The notes under the pieces are model-generated. The model was not told where the DNA came from, ran no database searches, and saw only the letters and a list, made by a program, of their open reading frames with translations. A program made the position numbers and the translations under genes. Positions 29,970 through 39,855 of a DNA stretch of 64,000 nucleotides are shown here, piece after piece. Position 1 is the stretch's first letter. Every line of letters begins with the position of its first letter. Where the stretch lies: contig NW_026516207.1 of NCBI RefSeq assembly GCF_025602895.1, positions 62,001 through 126,000 on the forward strand, in the 5' to 3' direction. This stretch comes from Polychytrium aggregatum. Lineage: Eukaryota; Chytridiomycota; Chytridiomycetes; Polychytriales.

Positions 29970-32900
29970 ATGTCCCTCGGCTGGTTCAAGAGGCGCTCTG
30001 GGAACCCAGGCGGCGAGGATCCGTCCTCCAAGGTCGCCCCTCCGCACCACAGCATGAACCCTCTGCAAAAGGGGTTCTATTCGCACATGACCTTTCTCTT
30101 CTCCCACGGCGCCAAGAATACGCTCTCTCTGAAGAACTTTGCCCCCATCGAGTACGCTGCCGTTTCGCTGCCATCCCGCCGCCATTCGCTCTCCGGGGAG
30201 GGATCTCGCGCTGGCTCAGAGCACAGCAAGGCAATGACCCAGCATCGCTCTCTCTGGCCATCGGCTCCGTGATTTAACCTCGTCGGATCGCTTGTGTCGT
30301 CCATCTCCCAGACCCAGCGATGACTGCAACGCCACTTCCGAACGTCTCCTCCGTGAATGGGAGAGGGAGGCCAAGAAGCCGTCGCCCAAGCTCTGGAAAG
30401 TCATGGTAGCCGCCTTGCCCCTTGCATCCGATCGCTGGAGTCGTCTGTCAATGTGCATTGGCCGAGGCCACACCTGCCTCCGATCGCCCTTTGATCCTCG
30501 CCTCGTCTCTCACTTCCTCTCATCCCATGTATCGATTCACCCTGTCTAGATGCGAGTAATGTGGATCGGTTACCGACAATCCGTTTTCCTGGTCTTTGTC
30601 TCCTGTCTCCTCAAAGTCGGAACGGCTCTGCTACTTGGGTGAGTGCTTGCGAGTGTCGACCACGACATCCTCGCCCATGTCGCCGGCGACCGAAACACCA
30701 GCGGTACCGAATGGGCAGCGGCATGCTGCATCAGCCTTCCTGACCCTTCTCCATGTCTCCCTCCGTGTCTCCAGCCAGCTTCTAGTTTGGTTCCAGGACA
30801 TTGGCACCAGTCCCGCATACATGGGCTACGTTTGGGTGATCCTTCTGTCGCTGGGATCAGTATTATCCCAAATAGTATCACACTGGATTATCTTCGCAAC
30901 CACCCGTACGGGCATGAACCTCCGCATCAGCTTCATCGCAACCATGTACCGCAAGTGCCTGAATCTCTCTATCGGCCACACCTCCAGCACCGGTGTGATC
31001 GTCAACATGATCTCGGCCGATGTTCAGCGTCTCGAGGACACCTGTATCTATGCTATCTATCTGATCCTGGCGCCGTTTGAGTTTGCTCTTGTGCTCTACT
31101 GTCTGTGGGAGCAGATCGGCGTCTCGAGCCTGGCAGGCATGCTCGGTCTTGGTGAGTGTTGGCTGGCTGCTAAGTACTTGACGCACAGCCCACAGTTATT
31201 CTCAGACCTGCTTGTTGCTTGCCTTCGAGCTTCTGCCCTCCTCTGCTACGCTCTGCCCTCCTCTGCTATGCCCTCCTCTGCTATGCTCTCGTGCCATGCC
31301 GAGTGGCCAAGGTTCTGGTTGTCCATGTTGCGGCCTGCAGAGATCCCGTTGTGCATCAAGGGCACCGTCCTTCCCACGCATGCTGTTCGATTCGAGTGCC
31401 ACTCTCCCTATTCGCTGTCGCCTTTTCCTGCTCGGCATGGCTATCGCTGCCGCTGCACCGCGCTTGACCATGGTTTCTAACGCTGAGCCTCTGCGGACCA
31501 CACCCCCATCTGGTCTCGATCCGTCCAGCCCTCCTCGTTCCGCTCCAGTCGCAGTTCGGCAAGATGTTTGGTGCAATCCGCCGCGAAACCAACAAGTTCC
31601 GTGATAAGCGCATCAGCAGTCTCTCCGACCTGCTCAGCGGCATCCAGGTCATCAAGCTCTATGCCTGGGAGCGACCGTTTATAGACAACGTCAACGACCT
31701 GCGCTCACACGAAGTCCACCAGATGACCAAGAGCTCGCTTCTCCGTGCCATCAACGACTCGATCTACTTTGTTTCGCCCACCCTGATTGCTCTCCTGGCC
31801 TTTGGAACGACCTATGCCCTCGGCGAAGCCCTTACCCCGGCCAAGATCTTCACGTCCATTCCTTTGTTCAACATCATCCGAATGGATATGACCAATTACA
31901 TTCCCAAGGCCGTGCAGTTTGCTACCGAGGCTCGCGTGTCACTCCAGCGAATCCAGGAGTTCCTGTCTCTGCCTGAGATTGATCGCCTCGCCAGCCACAG
32001 CGCCGATGTGGCCCATCTGGACTCGGTCGACCCCAAGCTGGCGGTCTTGGTCAGCGACGCCTCCCTTGCGTGGGGCACGACTCCCTTGGGTGGTCGGAAA
32101 GCACCGCCAAAGTCTCCGTCCAAAACAGCGACGCCAGTGCCCAGCCTCGAGAAGAAGGAAGACGTGTGCATCCTCAACAGCATCTCGTTCCAGGCCAACA
32201 CCGGTGAGCTCGTGGGCATCGTCGGACCAGTCGGCGCCGGCAAGACCAGTCTGCTGAACGCCCTCCTCGGCGAGATGGAGATCAGAGCCGGAACCATTCA
32301 CACGCGCTCGCGCAAGATGGCCTATGCATCGCAGCAGCCGTGGATCCTCTCCGGCACCATCCGCGACAACATCCTCTTTGGTGCCCCGTATCGAGAGCAG
32401 TGGTTCCGCACCGTCGTCAAGGCCTGCGCCCTCGAGCACGATCTTGGCCGCTTCCCCGAAGGCGAGGAGACTGTGGTCGGCGAACGAGGCGTGACTCTGT
32501 CGGGTGGCCAGCGAGCCCGCATTGCACTGGCCCGTGCGGTCTACGCCGACGCCGACATTATCTTCCTGGACGATCCTCTGAGTGCTGTCGATGCCCGGGT
32601 CGGAAGGTATGTGTCTGAGCACAGTATCGGCTGCATTGTCCCGAGCGAATGAGCGTCCGCGCTGCTATCGATGACGGTCGGGGTCGCCATGGATGCTTAT
32701 CGATAGCAGTCGCATGAATGCTTGTACCGATAGAGGTCGCTGTGATGTCTGTGTCGTCGATATTGTCCATCGTGGAGCCTGGGCACTAGGGCGTATGCTG
32801 CTCGAGTTTCTCATACAGACCATTTTCTCGCTATCGTGCCCCCCACCCAGACATCTATTCAACGAATGCATCCGTGGCGTACTCAAGGGCAAGACGATCT

Positions 32901-35528
32901 TCCTGGCCACGCACCAGCTCCAGTTTGTCAGTCACTGTGACCGTGTCATCTTGCTCGAGCGCGGCAGAGTCGCCGGCTTTGGAAGCTATCGGGAGGTCTG
33001 CCAAGCACCCGACTCGGTCTTTGCCAAGGTGCTTCAGGACTTTGAGGCTGCGGCATCCAACATCCAACAGACAGCAGCCCAAGACCAAGGCGCCAGCGCG
33101 GCCGATGAGGTTCTCGTGATCGAAGACGAGGTGCCCGAGATGAACTTCCAGAAGAAGGAGCTGGCGGCCGAGCAGAGTGAGCAGGGTACGCTCTCAACCC
33201 AGGTCTATGTCGACTACTTCCGCACCGGCGGAGGCGTTTCCTGGACGGTTGTGTGCATCGTCCTGGTGGTGCTGGCCCAGGTGTGCAGTCTGATGACGGA
33301 CTGGTGGCTGTCCCGCTGGTCCTCCGAGACGTTCACGGACCAGCGCAACCCCCAGAACCTGTACATTTACGTCGGCCTTGCGGGATGCGTCCTGGTGCTG
33401 GCCCTGTCGCGAGCCCTGCTGTTCTACTGGATCTGCCTGAACGCCTCGAGGGGTCTCTTCAAGAAGATGCTCAACGCTGTGCTCCGAGCACCAATGACAT
33501 TCTTCCAGAACAACCCGCACGGCCGAATCATGAAGTAGGTATCCCGATGCTTGACCCACGGGGTTCTGGGTGTGTTCCCGGTTTGGTAGTAGGCTCCGCG
33601 TAGTGGTGTACACCACAGTTCCACTCTTGCGATTCAAGGACGGCAGTCAGCGATCCATCGACCGCCTCGGCGACCATTTTCGACTCTGCGGGACACACTG
33701 TGCCGAGCACTGGCTTTCTGACGGATTGTCCATCGACTAACATGCACGTCTGTCTCTGCTGTCATCGTGCTTCTGCTTATCCGCAGCCGCTTCGCCAAGG
33801 ACATCAACCTGATGGACGACAACCTGCCGATGACGTTCTTTGACTTTACCCAGTTCGCATTCATTATCCTGGGCACGCTGGGTGTCACCGGCACGATCCC
33901 GTATCTGCTGCTGTTCATCCCGCCGATCGTCTACGGCTTTGTGCGAATCCAGCGCTTCTACCTGCTGACTGCCCGGCAGATCAAGCGCATGGAGAATGTG
34001 TCGCGGTCGCCCGTGTACTCGTTCATCACAACCTCGCTGGACGGACTGGCCCTCGTCCGAGCCTATGGCCGACAGTCCATGTTCCTCAACGAGTTCATCA
34101 AGCTGCAGAACGACAACACACGACTGTAGGTTGCGCGCCGTTTGCCTGAGAGAGCGTGGCTGGCGTGAGAATTCTTCAGGGACAGCAGAGTCGGAATCGA
34201 GTGAGGGTGAAAGTAGAGTGAGGGCCGATGGTGGCTGGGTGGGATGAAGTGCCGCTTGCTAATGTTGCCGACGGGATCGCTGCGCTCTCCAGGTTCTTTG
34301 CCTATCTCTCGTCGGGGAGATGGCTCGGCATTCGCCTGGACATGTCTGCATCGGCATTCATCTTTGTGCTTGGCCTCCTGTGTGTCGTCCTCAAGTCGAG
34401 CCTGGGTCTGTCTGGGGGCACGGTCGGTCTGATCCTGAGCTATGCCCTGCAGCTGGCCGGCTGTTCGCAATGGACGATCCGACAGAGCACCGAGGTCGAG
34501 AACCTGATGATCAGCTGCGAGCGCATCCTCGAGTACACCCGCCTGGCCCCGGAGGCGGCCGAGTACACCCATGTGCGCCCCGAGAAAGGTTGGCCCAGCA
34601 AGGGCAACGTTGCTATGAAGGATATGACACTGCGATATCCCGGAAGCTCGTGGGACGCACTGAAGGCGATCAGCGTCGACATCCAGGGCGGCACCAAGAT
34701 CGGCGTGGTTGGCCGTACTGGAGCTGGGGTAAGCAGGGCACATGCACGAGTGACGATGGTGCTGGTGCGGTGGGTCGGTGTGGTGGGTCGGTGTGGTTCC
34801 GACCAGTCCGATGCTGGGTACTTGCGGCCAGCACACCGCCAACGACACTGACAATATCGGCAACGCTCCCGCGGTTCCCTCTCCAGAAATCGTCCATCAT
34901 CCAGGCACTCTTCCGCCTGGTGGAGCCAACCCCCGAGAACTCCATCATGGTCGACGGCGTGTCGACGAGTGCCCTGGGACTGGCGGATCTGCGCTCGTCC
35001 ATCTCGATCATCCCGCAGGAGCCCTTCTGCTTCAACGGCACCGTCCGATTCAACCTGGACCCCTTCAACAAGTACACCGACGCCGAGATCTGGTCGGCCC
35101 TCGAGCTCGTCTCGCTCAAGACCCGGGTGGGATCCGACCTCGAGACCCACATCTCCGAGAACGGATCCAACTGGAGCTTTGGCGAGCGGCAGCTCATTTG
35201 CCTGGCTCGCGCGCTGCTCCGGGCCAGCAAGATCATTGTCATGGACGAGGCCACCTCGGCGGTCGACATGCAGACGGACCGGCTGATCCAGGACAGCGTC
35301 CGGACCATCTTCAAGGACTCGACGGTCTTTACGATCGCGCACCGGCTCAACACCATCATCGACTACGACCGGATCCTGGTTCTGGACGAAGGACGGGTGG
35401 TGGAGTACGGCAGCCCGCGCGAGCTGCTGGCGATCGAGGGCCACGGCTGGTTCTGGAAGATGTGCAAGGAGACGGGCGAGCAGTCGTTTGAGCTGCTGAA
35501 GCGAGCAGCGAGCGAGCGAGGCCAGTGA
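29970..35528 (+). CDS. ABC transporter, MRP/ABCC type (full transporter without TMD0)
   Basis: This 1304-aa membrane exporter has exons 29970-30151, 30318-30405, 30550-30638, 30775-31151, 31529-32606, 32851-33534, 33787-34125, 34293-34728 and 34887-35528, all in phase. The order is TMD1-NBD1-TMD2-NBD2. The cytosolic loop LSDLLSGIQVIKLYAWE is typical of ABCC proteins. NBD1 has Walker A GPVGAGKTS, signature LSGGQRARIALARAV and Walker B IIFLDDPLSAVD. TMD2 has GRIMNRFAKDINLMDDNLP. NBD2 has Walker A GRTGAGKSS and Walker B IIVMDEATSAVD, but its signature reads WSFGERQ instead of LSxGQ. The length and lack of an N-terminal TMD0 match ABCC4-like organic-anion or conjugate exporters. The location may be plasma or vacuolar membrane; the substrate is unknown. 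Confidence 0.94.
31234..31283. repeat. Intronic tandem repeat, CCCTCCTCTGCTATG
   Basis: About three copies of a 15-base pyrimidine-rich unit lie in the ABC-transporter intron 31152-31528. Confidence 0.85.
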
Positions 35529-35948
35529 CAAGTGACGGGTAGCGAGTAACGAGCAGGCAGCCGTGCTGCTGAGATGCTGAATACGAGCCCCGGTTGGACT
35601 GCACAATGCATCTGAACAGCGACCCGCGCGAGCGCCGTACCCCGCGAACGATCCACTTGCCCGCATGATGGAGCCGGGGTGTACGGGCTGCCCGACACCA
35701 GCGATGTGATTCAGCTGGAATCACAGTGCGACCACCACGGAGCACCGAGTGACAGCTGCTGCCATGTGTCAACAGCGAATATCGTGCCCGGAGAGCGAAT
35801 ATCGTGTCTCGGGAGCGGATATTGCGCTTCAGCAGCGGAGACAGCACTTCAACAGTCGACATCTGATCTCAACACGCTGTACTTTCCAGCGGCTGGCAAC
35901 AGTTGAACAGTTGAACAGTTGATGTTCTCGCCCCGCTGTACACTTTAT
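35529..35948. other. Intergenic region between the ABC transporter and the Fanzor element
   Basis: These 420 bases contain degenerate direct repeats (GAGCGAATATCGTG-like, about 35773-35825) and three copies of TTGAACAG at 35903-35922, close to the left inverted repeat. No gene was seen. Confidence 0.55.
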
Positions 35949-35966
35949 TCAGAAAAAAACGGGACA
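35949..35966. repeat. Left terminal inverted repeat candidate
   Basis: The sequence TCAGAAAAAAACGGGACA matches the reverse complement of 39303-39320 at 15 of 18 positions. Confidence 0.55.
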
Positions 35967-36038
35967 ATATAGCCGTTTCCATGAACATGTAGTATGTGCT
36001 GTGCTTGCGTCAAGCAAAGCCACAAGAAATAAAACAGA

Positions 36039-38410
36039 TCACTTTGGCAGCCTCCGAGTGAAGACCGCCGGTCGCTCTCCGATCTCCACAATCGACCTGC
36101 ATACTGTGATCATGTTGCGCGCCGCATTGACGTCGCGATTCCACACTGTCCGGCAGCTGGGATTCTTGCAGCTCCTGACAAAGTGGGAATTCGCAACACT
36201 GGGCGCATCGAGTCCTTCCAACCGAACTGGCTCCAGGCACTTGGAGCACACTTGCGAGGTGTTGAACTCGTTCGTCGAGGCCACCTTGACGCTTCCGTGA
36301 GGGTGAGTGGGACGGCGGCGGTGGTGCTCGAATTGCTCAAAGTACCGAGCAAACCGCTGCCTCCGAGGGCTGGATGCATAGCCCTTGCCTTGACGCCATG
36401 ACGCATTGCCAAAGGCGATCACCACATCGGTCCGTATCGGGGCGTGCTTCAGGACGGCCTTGCACATCCTGTCGACGGCCACTTGGCGTCTCTTGTGGCC
36501 CGTGAAGCGATGGTGACGGGCCTTCTTGCCAAGGTGGAAGTCGAGCTGCACTCGCAGCTCCGGTCGCAGGACATGGGTGAGATGGACCTTGAAGGCCTCC
36601 GAGGATGACACCTTGGGCGAGGGGGTGGTCGACATCCAGGTCTCGATATCGAGTCGATACTTCATGATATTGTGCCACTTGGTGTTGGACGTATGGCCAC
36701 ACATGTGCTGGTAGTGACCATTGGAGAATGGGACCACCTCGTCTTGGTGGCCCGGTGCTTGGATGACCGCCGTGAAGATGGAGCCGACTCCAGGATCGAT
36801 GCCAATCCAAGTGGTGCGGTCGGGGTCTGGGTCGCCAATGTGGGCCTGGATACGCTGCTCGGCAGTCGGAGGAGGCTCGATGGTCTCGGTGTGATCGGTT
36901 CGAGGCAGAAACTTGACGAGACCGATGGTGCATCCAATGCCATCGGTGCTGATCTCGTAGTTGAACAGCTCCTTGTTCACGTCCCGCTCTTGGAAGAGGG
37001 AACTACGCAGCTTGAAGCAACTGCGCCAGAGACGATCCTGGTTGTTGACACCGTCCTCACCTTCTTCCTTGAGCATGTCCCAGGTGAGTCCAAGGCGCTT
37101 CTTGGACCCAGGAGATCCCAGAGAGTGACCGTGTCAATCTTGACATACTTGGCCGTGGCAGTGCACAGAGGAACTATCGTGCACACGGCCGGAGGAGTGT
37201 CGAGAGCGAGCTGCTTCAGTGCCCACTTGATCCTGGATGCCAGCTTGTTGATCTTGGACTTGGTGGTGCCGAGCTCAGACTTGGCCGTGGTGAACCTCTT
37301 GTCGTCGGAGGGAATGCCTCGGGCAGTGAGCTCGTCCAGCTTGGCCTGGCGCTGCAGCTCGGTGACTCGGAGGGCGGGCATGTCACAGTCGATCCACTTG
37401 TGGACATTGTCGACCATCTTGTCCCGGGCGAGGATTCCCACATGGTGTGAGAGGCGATGGAGGGCCCGGAAGCGGTCCTGGTCGTTGCTGTACCGAAACT
37501 CGTCCAGGACGTGACCAAACTCGGGATAGAGGAACTCGAGATCGGCCTTGGGTGGAGTCTGCCCTGGTTTCTCGAAGAGCTCGAGACAGGCCTCGATGGC
37601 TTCGTGCTTATGCTTGTTGGCTGGGAAGACGGCAGCGCAGAAGCGGCGAAGGAGTCGCCAGTAGGCCAGGTCGAGGTGGGTGGTGCAGTTGGTGGCATAG
37701 GCATTGACAGCCAGTGTGAGAAGCTGACTGTGAGCACCATCAGGCAGACGAGGGGCCGGAGGCAGGTCTGCGTGCCGAGTGGTCTGGTAGTCGCGAAAGG
37801 AAGCGACCAGATGCTCGTTGTATTTCTCGTTGTCCCCGGTCGGGGAGAGGGCACCGTCCTGGACGATCTTGAAGCATTGGCGGATGAAAGCAGGGGTGGA
37901 CTTGGAGATGACGGGGACGGGAAGATCCTGCTCGATGCACCGGAGGATGTGCAGGTTGAGCAGCCTGGATGCCTCGAACTGGATCTGGGTCATGGCCTCG
38001 ACGGTGGCCTGGATCTTGTCGCGGAGAGCGGGATTGAGACAACAGCCATCCATCGTCTGCTTGAAGCAGCTGAACTGAGGGGCGGATGACCTTCCATCCA
38101 CGAGTGGGACGACAGAGCTCTTGAGGGGCCGGTATTTGGGACATTTGCTGGTGTTGCAACGTTCGTGATCGGTGCCATCGCACTTGGGACATCGCTTGCT
38201 GGTACTCGAGGAAGTAGATGGACCAGGCTCGGTGGGATCGACATCCATTGGATCTGCAGAAGCAGTGGTGGTGAGCGACGGAGCAACAGACGACCAAGCA
38301 TGTGTGGGGTCAGAATACGAACCAGAGACAGGCTCCGACTGTGACTTGGCTTTCTTGGGCCTGGGTGGCCGAGGCTGGCCATCACCGGTACCCTTGCGCT
38401 TCGGAGGCAT
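36039..38410 (-). pseudogene. Fanzor RNA-guided nuclease (TnpB-like), one apparent frameshift
   Basis: Two overlapping minus-strand frames make one protein of about 780 aa. Frame 1 (38410-36977, 477 aa, ATG start) has a basic N-terminus and a CPKC-H-C-C knuckle (RCPKCDGTDHERC). It then has a long helical region and a segment KYVKIDTVTLWDLLG that is followed by an unrelated tail. Frame 2 (ATG 37076, but open from about 37110, to 36039) continues with SKKRLGLTWDMLKEEGEDG. It then gives the Fanzor core: ISTDGIGCTIGL, RuvC-I GIDPGVGSIFTA (Asp94), STNEFNTSQVC (Glu270), zinc ribbon CSKC...CKNPSC, and RuvC-III NRDVNAARN (Asp315). All RuvC acidic residues are present. The frames join if one base is missing near 37100-37112. 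This may be a real mutation or an assembly error, so activity is unclear. Confidence 0.85.
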
Positions 38411-38639
38411 GGGGGCAGAGGATGCTGGATGCCTGCCAGTGGTACTGGTCAGAGCAGAGACGCTTCTTTATCGTACAATGGCGCGATGATCAGATCAAGG
38501 CGAGATGAGGGAAGAAAGCAGCAGGACGAAGGTGTGGCATTTATACCCGAGAGCAGGAGCCCGTCTTTGCGGGTTGGTTGGGGAAGTGACCCTGTTCAAA
38601 AATCGCCGAGAGGTTCAAGCCAGGGATGTGAACGCGAAA

Positions 38640-38722
38640 ATGGCGGCTTGATTGGAGGGACAACCCCAAATTGGAGGAACTCAACCCCAAATCGGTGGGG
38701 ACTCAACCCCAAAGAAGTTCTC
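38640..38722. repeat. Degenerate tandem repeat at the Fanzor/transposase junction
   Basis: On the minus strand, three units beginning TTTGGGGTTG follow one another with 19-22 base spacing. They start exactly where the transposase frame loses similarity after its catalytic Glu. They probably mark a recombination or slippage breakpoint. Confidence 0.7.
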
Positions 38723-39244
38723 GATGGGATTGAAGTCGGGTGAAGCAGGTGGGGTGAAGATCACTGACCATCCTCGGCGCTCGATGCAGTCCAGGACAGC
38801 CATTGTCTTGTGCATGCTGACATTGTCCATCACAATCACAGAGTCGTCTGGGAAGGTCGCTCGCTCAAAGAACTCGACCATCGAGTGTGTCTTGAATGAT
38901 GTGGGGATGTACATGCGATGCAGCACACCAGAGTGGTTGATGGCAAATGCAGCCGAGACAGACTTGTGCTTCATGTGATTGCGCTGGCGAAGCGGAGCAC
39001 CCTTCGGTGAGTATCCGTAGAGAGGGAAAATGGATCTCCTGATCCCTGTCTCATCGACAAAAACGAATCGCCGCGGGTCGATGGAGCGGACCTGGTCCCT
39101 GAACTGTGCCACTCGCTCATCCAGTCGCTTGGACTTGTAGAGGTGTGTTGCCCTCTTGTGTGAGAGACCTGCTCGGTGGATGGCAGTGTGGCAGAGTGAG
39201 AGTGATACTTTCCTCTGGAGAGTGGTTGTGTGGCGAATGGTCAT
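38681..39244 (-). pseudogene. Truncated DD34E (Tc1/mariner-type) transposase
   Basis: This 187-codon frame contains the complete DDE catalytic core: VFVDETG (Asp64), IVMDNVSMHK (Asp140) and SPDFNPIENFF (Glu175). Thirty-four residues separate the last two acids, the Tc1-like DD34E spacing. Only the end of the N-terminal helix-turn-helix region remains (CHTAIHRAGLSHKRA), so about 100 residues that bind the inverted repeats are missing. The C-terminus stops in repeat-derived sequence (GVESPPIWG) soon after the catalytic Glu. It lies about 270 bases upstream of the Fanzor start on the same strand, and its start codon is close to the right inverted repeat. It is unlikely to be active alone. Confidence 0.87.
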
Positions 39245-39302
39245 GGCCAGCGCGCGATAACATTGGGTAACAAAATATTCGATGAATGGTCAAAAACCTG
39301 GG

Positions 39303-39320
39303 TGTCCCGTTTTTTATTGG
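39303..39320. repeat. Right terminal inverted repeat candidate
   Basis: The sequence TGTCCCGTTTTTTATTGG is the partner of the left repeat. It lies 59 bases beyond the truncated transposase start codon (39244). Confidence 0.55.
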
Positions 39321-39855
39321 ATCGCCTGTAACGGTGTCGTTGTTGCACCACTGCGCTTCGTGCCATTGCCCTTCGCCAACTCGTGCTCGCCCTCATCGGC
39401 GCCGACACCCACAAACGCACATCTTGCACGTCCTTGCGCATCCATCGCAGCCGGCCGACCAAGCCCCGCCCCGACTTGCCTCCGTCGTCTCCTGCCCGGA
39501 CTGCCCTCTGCCTCTTCTTTTTGCTCCCGTCGCTGCCGGCCCTGGCCGAGGATCTGCTTGCGCTTCTCGCCCTGCAGTTCCCAGCCGCACCCACCACGCC
39601 TCGCCGATACGCCTCGCCAATACGGCCCTCGATATCATCTCGTCGCCTCGGCGCTTTGGCATCCGCACCGTCCGTCGCTGCAATCCCATGCTGCAACGGA
39701 TATCCTGTTGAGGCCCCCTCTCCTCTAGTTCTTTTCTCTGCCCTGTCCTGTCTTGCCAACTGCCGGACACCGACCGATCAACCAAACATCAGGGCTCACT
39801 CAGCAAGCGTCCCAAACTCCTCTGCTAATCGATACCCCACCTCCGGACTGCCGTC
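39321..39855. promoter_or_regulatory. Upstream region of spastin
   Basis: These 535 bases between the right inverted repeat and the spastin ATG must contain the spastin promoter and leader. Open frames here are short and show no similarity. The mobile element ends right at its distal edge and could influence spastin expression. Confidence 0.45.

Follow-up and report, generated by a model that had tools for sequence, protein, structure and literature searches.

A Fanzor1 gene and a DD34E transposase gene lie within one TA-flanked Tc1/mariner-type element of the chytrid Polychytrium aggregatum

The stretch of DNA analyzed here (the window) comprises 64,000 nt of contig NW_026516207.1 of Polychytrium aggregatum, from an assembly of 64.7 Mb in 418 contigs, and it holds an element of 3,388 bp at positions 35941-39328 with TA on both sides. 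When this element is compared with its other copies in the genome, it is apparent that it is a Tc1/mariner-type, TA-flanked element with genes for a DD34E transposase and for a Fanzor1 protein, and that copies of the family stand nearly always beside TAA, in a manner locked to their own orientation. The explanation that best covers the whole, and that we consider reasonably probable, is a DD34E mariner carrying an RNA-guided Fanzor1 that is restricted by a target-adjacent motif (TAM) and helps to keep or spread insertions.

The element lies on the minus strand, with its right end at 39328 and its left end at 35941, and runs from the right end through transposase and Fanzor to the left end, both genes being on that strand. 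Thirty near-full-length copies from 28 distinct sites (the window copy counted) were fetched, and all 30 have the same ends. Each end carries a 26-bp terminal inverted repeat (TIR), given here on the plus strand: the left one, CACTTTATTCAGAAAAAAACGGGACA, on the Fanzor 3' side at 35941-35966, and the right one on the transposase 5' side at 39303-39328. Counted by eye in the family form, the right TIR matches the inverted left TIR at 19 of 26 bases, with all seven mismatches in the outer 13 bases; the inner arms (35947-35966 and 39303-39322) are 85% complementary over 20 nt, and some copies (e.g., L006, L009, and L030) vary in sequence at the right end. The inverted repeat that an earlier reading of this sequence (the original prediction) had placed around the genes is present as the inner part of these TIRs, although the ends given there (35949 and 39320) fall 8 bp short on each side. 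TA stands at the left end in 29 of the 30 copies and at the right end in all 30, making a target-site duplication (TSD) at 35939-35940 and 39329-39330 in the window. An empty site bears this out: the copy L022, which is inserted in another repeat, has TA at either end, whereas all five of the paralogs of its site that were read (of 38 listed) have a single TTA and then A, from which it follows that TA was duplicated on insertion and that the A was already there. For L024 the corresponding empty site had diverged too far to be informative. TA duplication and terminal inverted repeats are both marks of Tc1/mariner elements. That the parts form one element, as had been proposed, is confirmed by the common ends; copies with differing boundaries and copies lacking the inverted repeats were both looked for and neither was seen, while the suggested alignment of copies yielded the ends, the TA duplication and open forms such as L061.

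The family is abundant. Scoring the best 40 of 1,209 candidate places, the search of the assembly with the window element found 36 that match it from query base 1 through 3,272 or further. With up to three mismatches allowed (TA included for the ends), the assembly contains 276 left ends, 396 right ends and 248 places matching a 35-mer of the Fanzor RuvC-I motif. There are fewer sites than places, since 15 of the 25 sites with listed matches are present on two contigs. The lengths of the 30 copies are 3,385-3,388 bp (n = 5, the window copy included), 3,502 bp (n = 1) and 3,625-3,636 bp (n = 24); a longer class of ~3,735-3,740 bp is common, and the longest common family form, represented by L061, is ~3,738 bp. 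Among the matches listed, a right end could be assigned by position to 66 of 100 exact left ends, and by size these comprise 26 elements of 3.66-3.8 kb, 26 of 3.1-3.66 kb, 4 of ~1.1 kb and 10 shorter than 0.7 kb. Of 30 left ends sampled, 26 continue into Fanzor sequence. In L061 (3,738 bp) both genes are open, encoding a transposase of 310 aa and a Fanzor of 790 aa, and no third gene is found among its open reading frames (ORFs) of at least 150 aa, the remainder of which overlap Fanzor. L062, of the long class, has an open Fanzor and a broken transposase frame, and 19 of the 30 copies keep an uninterrupted Fanzor frame of 789-790 aa. The copy in the window has degenerated, with both genes broken, a Fanzor frameshift near 37.1 kb, and ~350 bp of the transposase region missing relative to L061 (~245 bp on the 5' side and ~105 bp net on the 3' side). 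At C223:1122796-1122932 two left ends stand face to face ~130 bp apart, in what is apparently a palindromic miniature element made of two left ends.

The Tc1-like transposase core that had been predicted on the Fanzor strand is found at 38681-39244 (minus strand), as a remnant without part of the N-terminal region and without the C-terminus that matches DDE_3 (PF13358, E 1.1e-21). The same domain is matched by the L061 transposase (E 5.3e-24), whose catalytic residues are D145, D221, and E256; 34 residues separate the second D from the E, in agreement with the predicted DD34E class. Its N-terminal helix-turn-helix match to HTH_23 scores 18.6 bits, below the cut-off of 24.6.

A Fanzor gene with RuvC and zinc-ribbon motifs had likewise been predicted, and it is present in the window as two overlapping minus-strand ORFs offset by the frameshift. 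The N-terminal part (36977-38410) matched no Pfam family on its own and contains the basic stretches PKRKG and PKKAK, which we take to be nuclear-localization-like, as well as a CxxC...H...C knuckle. The C-terminal part (36039-37076) carries TDG, the RuvC motif IGIDPG, a glutamate before a C4 zinc ribbon, and WNRDVNAARN, and it matches the TnpB/Cas12f-type zinc-ribbon domain (PF07282) with E 1.9e-9, as does the L061 Fanzor (E 1.8e-9). In an alignment of ten sequences, T489, D490, and G491 of the L061 protein (TDG) and D539, P540, and G541 of its IGIDPG motif (at 536) are invariant in 10/10; so are E715, six residues ahead of the zinc finger, and the ribbon cysteines C722, C725, C748, and C753, while the RuvC-III residue D760 is nearly so. 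TDG in the WED domain, IGIDPG, an alternative glutamate six residues before the zinc finger, and WNRDVNAARN are marks of Fanzor or Fanzor1 proteins as defined in PMC10711439. As a single sequence the L061 Fanzor matched nothing in the PDB at E 0.01, whereas a profile of it with nine relatives matched three solved Fanzor1 proteins, SpuFz1 (2.8e-37), PpFz1 (5.2e-28), and GtFz1 (3.1e-20), and on this match the sequence places the protein in Fanzor1. A further mark of Fanzor1, encoding in a eukaryotic transposon other than IS607, is seen here in the common ends, the open gene pair and the empty site.

Twelve relatives were found in the database. Nine are unnamed proteins of 22-34% identity; as far as seen, the Fanzor appears to be a distinct lineage, its relatives outside this genome being of that low identity. 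Viral contigs scanned with one peptide pattern gave no relative. The other three (P0007, P0008, and P0010) are Polychytrium aggregatum proteins with 50-65% identity over 8-17% of the query, fused to unrelated domains, and are probably wrong gene models; since these matches are fragments joined to other domains, the family seems to be unannotated as such. Residues ~74-90 of the L061 Fanzor form a CxxC...H...C knuckle, which is seen in six of nine aligned relatives and lies outside the regions matched in two PDB alignments. The same genome also holds a second, divergent Fanzor family, recognized in the flanks of L022 and L024 and in L063-L072 and L074-L078. Its protein is 37% and 61% identical to the first in stretches that jointly cover residues 112-790, the frame being broken in the copy that was read; its end region matches 38 places and its Fanzor C-terminal part 35, and copies of the first family are nested inside it.

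Both genes of the first family are under purifying selection and were kept during its spread. In a sample of 26 copies (four with an N-terminal transposase deletion were dropped, and sites near gaps were ignored), variants common to at least two copies give a ratio of nonsynonymous to synonymous polymorphism (pN/pS) of 0.29 for Fanzor (141 nonsynonymous, including three stops, and 150 synonymous) and 0.19 for the transposase (22 and 37). Singletons, defined within this sample only, at first gave a higher ratio for the transposase (0.86 vs 0.49), as if it decayed faster than Fanzor, and this difference vanished after filtering (0.55 vs 0.43 in 26 copies; 0.50 vs 0.42 in 24 copies, Fisher p 0.58).

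The insertion sites of the family follow a one-sided rule. After an exact right end comes TAA in 206 places and TAB in 10 (allelic places on paired contigs are counted twice and are non-independent), and TAA stands at the right end in all 33 fetched sites, the duplicate sites L002, L018, and L041 having been dropped. This is so although in the window A follows TA less often than any other base does (140/1,272). Outside the left-end TA stands G in 21, C in 18, A in 11, and T in 6 of 56 sites, which puts T at background (6/56 vs 169/1,272; p 0.70). Because the right side is nearly fixed and the left side is at background, the preference is tied to the orientation of the element, with 5'-TTA on the 5' side of Fanzor. 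From these sequences we predict 5'-TTA-3', in Fanzor orientation, as the TAM of the nuclease; in the window it would occupy 39329-39331 on the minus strand. The pattern suggests a filter on insertion sites, exerted by the nuclease or else by an unusually asymmetric transposase. In Spu-1, according to PMC10432273, CA is conserved outside the 5' inverted repeat and together with TA equals the measured TAM, CATA; the same source gives TTAA(N) as the TAM of GtFz1.

The left end has the features of a plausible guide RNA end, which together with the predicted 5'-TTA supports the guide RNA and target motif of its own that had been envisaged for the element. A 149-nt omega-RNA scaffold with three stem-loops is predicted at 35939-36087 (minus strand), spanning the last Fanzor codons, the 3' untranslated region (UTR), the TIR, and the TSD, with a putative guide portion in the host flank at 35919-35938 (minus strand). 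The latter is drawn with a margin from PMC10432273, where the SpuFz1 guide is 14-15 nt in vivo. The L061 stretch matching the scaffold folds with z -2.65, and the 103 nt from the stop codon (35939-36041), whose sequence is the same in the window and in L061, with z -1.94; in the closing stem, the TIR end and TSD pair with upstream bases. PMC10711439 likewise predicts that the guide scaffold of Fanzor1 includes the TIR and the TSD. Low synonymous variation near the left end is only partly supported: fourfold sites that vary in at least two copies number 5/37 in the last 70 codons and 75/205 in codons 301-720 (p 0.007), and those with any variant 11/37 and 96/205 (p 0.07). Taken together, the fold and this pattern are consistent with an omega-RNA, without amounting to proof.

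The favored explanation can be set out as a series of steps. The transposase would move the element into TA sites, and a transcript of the Fanzor end would run through the left end into host DNA to give an omega-RNA with the flank as its guide. The resulting ribonucleoprotein would cut element-free copies of the site that carry the adjacent 5'-TTA, and, by analogy with TnpB, repair of the cut from the element-bearing chromosome would spread or keep the insertion. Should TTA be the TAM, the occupied site would itself escape cutting, since what precedes the guide-matching flank there is GTA, contributed by the element end, and not TTA.

Several observations weigh against this explanation. Across 56 copies, compensatory change was seen at 0 of 46 consensus pairs of the predicted guide RNA. 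The 3' UTR is no less variable than the intergenic spacer (11/98 vs 29/250 sites), and its variants are found in more copies. Of 26 sites checked for an empty allele, all but L021 gave listed matches, and none of these 25 was uninterrupted, in a search of the best 40 of 55 candidates in which some second contigs show a half-site only (e.g., C299, C405, C246, and C379 near 29.6 kb) and a miss is possible, and homing was therefore not caught in the act. Finally, derivatives that by size lack Fanzor obey the insertion rule, with TAA at 12 of 14 paired elements (8 TAA and 2 TAB below 700 bp; 4 TAA at ~1.1 kb), which means that the transposase could impose it.

This last observation supports a different account, possible though rather unlikely in our estimation, in which Fanzor is a passenger as far as target choice is concerned and the need for TAA on the right-end side comes from the transposase itself, acting on unequal ends. 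The unequal TIRs, with their mismatches confined to the outer bases, also fit such an account. Known target preferences of Tc1/mariner transposases, however, are symmetric around TA, and an orientation-blind preference predicts T outside the left end as often as A outside the right, whereas T is found at 6/56 and A at 206/216. The four short derivatives that were read (L033, L041, L043, and L059) retain 166-447 bp of the left end, on which Fanzor could therefore act in trans. Purifying selection on Fanzor speaks against a mere passenger and is silent on target choice.

Of the 15 sites present on two contigs, four were compared as allelic pairs. Over 9,579 aligned bases their flanks show 7 mismatches and a few gaps, whereas the elements within them differ by 0.4-3%, patchily spread: 68 differences in 3,388 for L001/L002, 16 in 3,631 for L013/L018, 109 in 3,635 plus a 103-bp length difference (3,636 vs 3,739 bp) for L030/L073, and 22 in 1,110 plus a 2.5-kb deletion (3,634 vs 1,110 bp) for L029/L041. 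The mean identity of the family is 95.9%, and copies at different sites reach at most 97.1%; at 97.0%, L030 and L073 accordingly have the look of unrelated copies. This mosaicism could reflect ectopic gene conversion, homing with template switching, or assembly crosstalk, all of which fit it, and the paired contigs may exist because of such element differences, which would bias the sample. Assembly crosstalk, an artefact in which reads of many similar copies were mixed during correction or polishing, is quite possible as an account of the mosaicism, though short of probable: the differences are patchy and the second Fanzor family is mosaic as well in one of two pairs, but the large size gaps at paired sites (3,634 vs 1,110 bp and 3,636 vs 3,739 bp) and the second-family pair that differs only in or beside a GT run argue against it. 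That comparison had been meant as a control on a non-Fanzor repeat, and the repeat chosen proved to be the second Fanzor family, with a similar mosaic in one allelic pair and, in the other, differences only in or next to the GT run. A stronger form of the favored explanation, which we hold to be unlikely as it stands, would make Fanzor the RNA-guided homing nuclease of a cut-and-paste mariner: it would cut empty TTA-flanked alleles, so that insertions in one orientation beside TTA are retained and fixed, and template-switch repair through the multi-copy element would leave near-identical flanks around mosaic copies on the two chromosomes. If true, a TA-targeting transposon would thereby become a self-fixing drive element. 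The possibility that a transposase fragment and a Fanzor copy independent of it came by chance to lie between weak repeats, to which the degenerate window copy taken alone and its imperfect repeat might point, is refuted for practical purposes by the ends common to 30/30 copies and by the constant order of transposase and Fanzor frames wherever both are listed, an order kept in L062 and in L061 with both genes open.

As in other Tc1/mariner DD34E elements, there are a DDE_3 domain, DD34E spacing, TIRs, and a TA duplication, unlike them a Fanzor is carried and the outer flank is an orientation-locked TAA. In the tnpA-tnpB pairs of IS200/IS605, a transposase gene is likewise joined to an RNA-guided nuclease with a guide from the element end (predicted in the present case), whereas their transposase is of the HUH type with neither TIR nor TSD, in place of DD34E, TIRs, and a TA duplication. 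The host belongs to the class Chytridiomycetes, and Spizellomyces punctatus is also a chytrid. Its Spu-1/SpuFz1, as described in PMC10432273 and PMC3627910, resembles the present family in its putative TA duplications, Fanzor1, and ghost elements and, according to the former, in an omega-RNA at the 3' end (predicted here) and in conserved additional bases beyond one end, which together with TA match the TAM. It differs, according to PMC10432273, in that no transposase was found between the inverted repeats, in its TAM (CATA vs the TTA predicted here), and in its 42 Fz loci and 134 ghosts, where here 26/30 sampled left ends run into Fanzor.

Fanzor1 genes have been reported with mariner-like transposases in the TA-flanked elements PGv-1 and PUl-1 (Bao and Jurka 2013, PMC3627910). 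These share a mariner-like transposase, Fanzor1, TIRs, and TA duplications with the Polychytrium family, and PGv-1 also has its transposase in the 5' part and its Fanzor in the 3' part; PGv-1 differs in being single-copy and virus-borne with an extra GIY-YIG protein, whereas the present family is fungal, with Fanzor motifs at 248 places. Because Fanzor1 in mariner elements has been known since 2013, this family is an addition to an established class and no new class, and the original prediction of a distinct lineage holds in the low identity of its unnamed relatives (22-34%) but not as a new kind of element. In one limited literature collection no Polychytrium Fanzor was found in print.

The role of Fanzor for its host transposon is stated as unknown in PMC10432273. 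A chytrid family in which a single element can hold both genes, Fanzor and the DD34E transposase, in open form is a ready system for the study of homing, retention, and guide-RNA use, in which the many natural flanks (possible guides), the many deletion derivatives, and the sharp TAM prediction make that role testable; it could also supply a eukaryotic nuclease whose predicted TAM is short. Its interest, which we regard as moderate, rests on its abundance, on the presence in a chytrid of both genes in open form, and on the sharpness of the TAM prediction. Next to the element in the window, a 5.55-kb segment at 30015-35568, with an ABC transporter gene recognized by eye, has copies 98-99% identical on C362 and C168.

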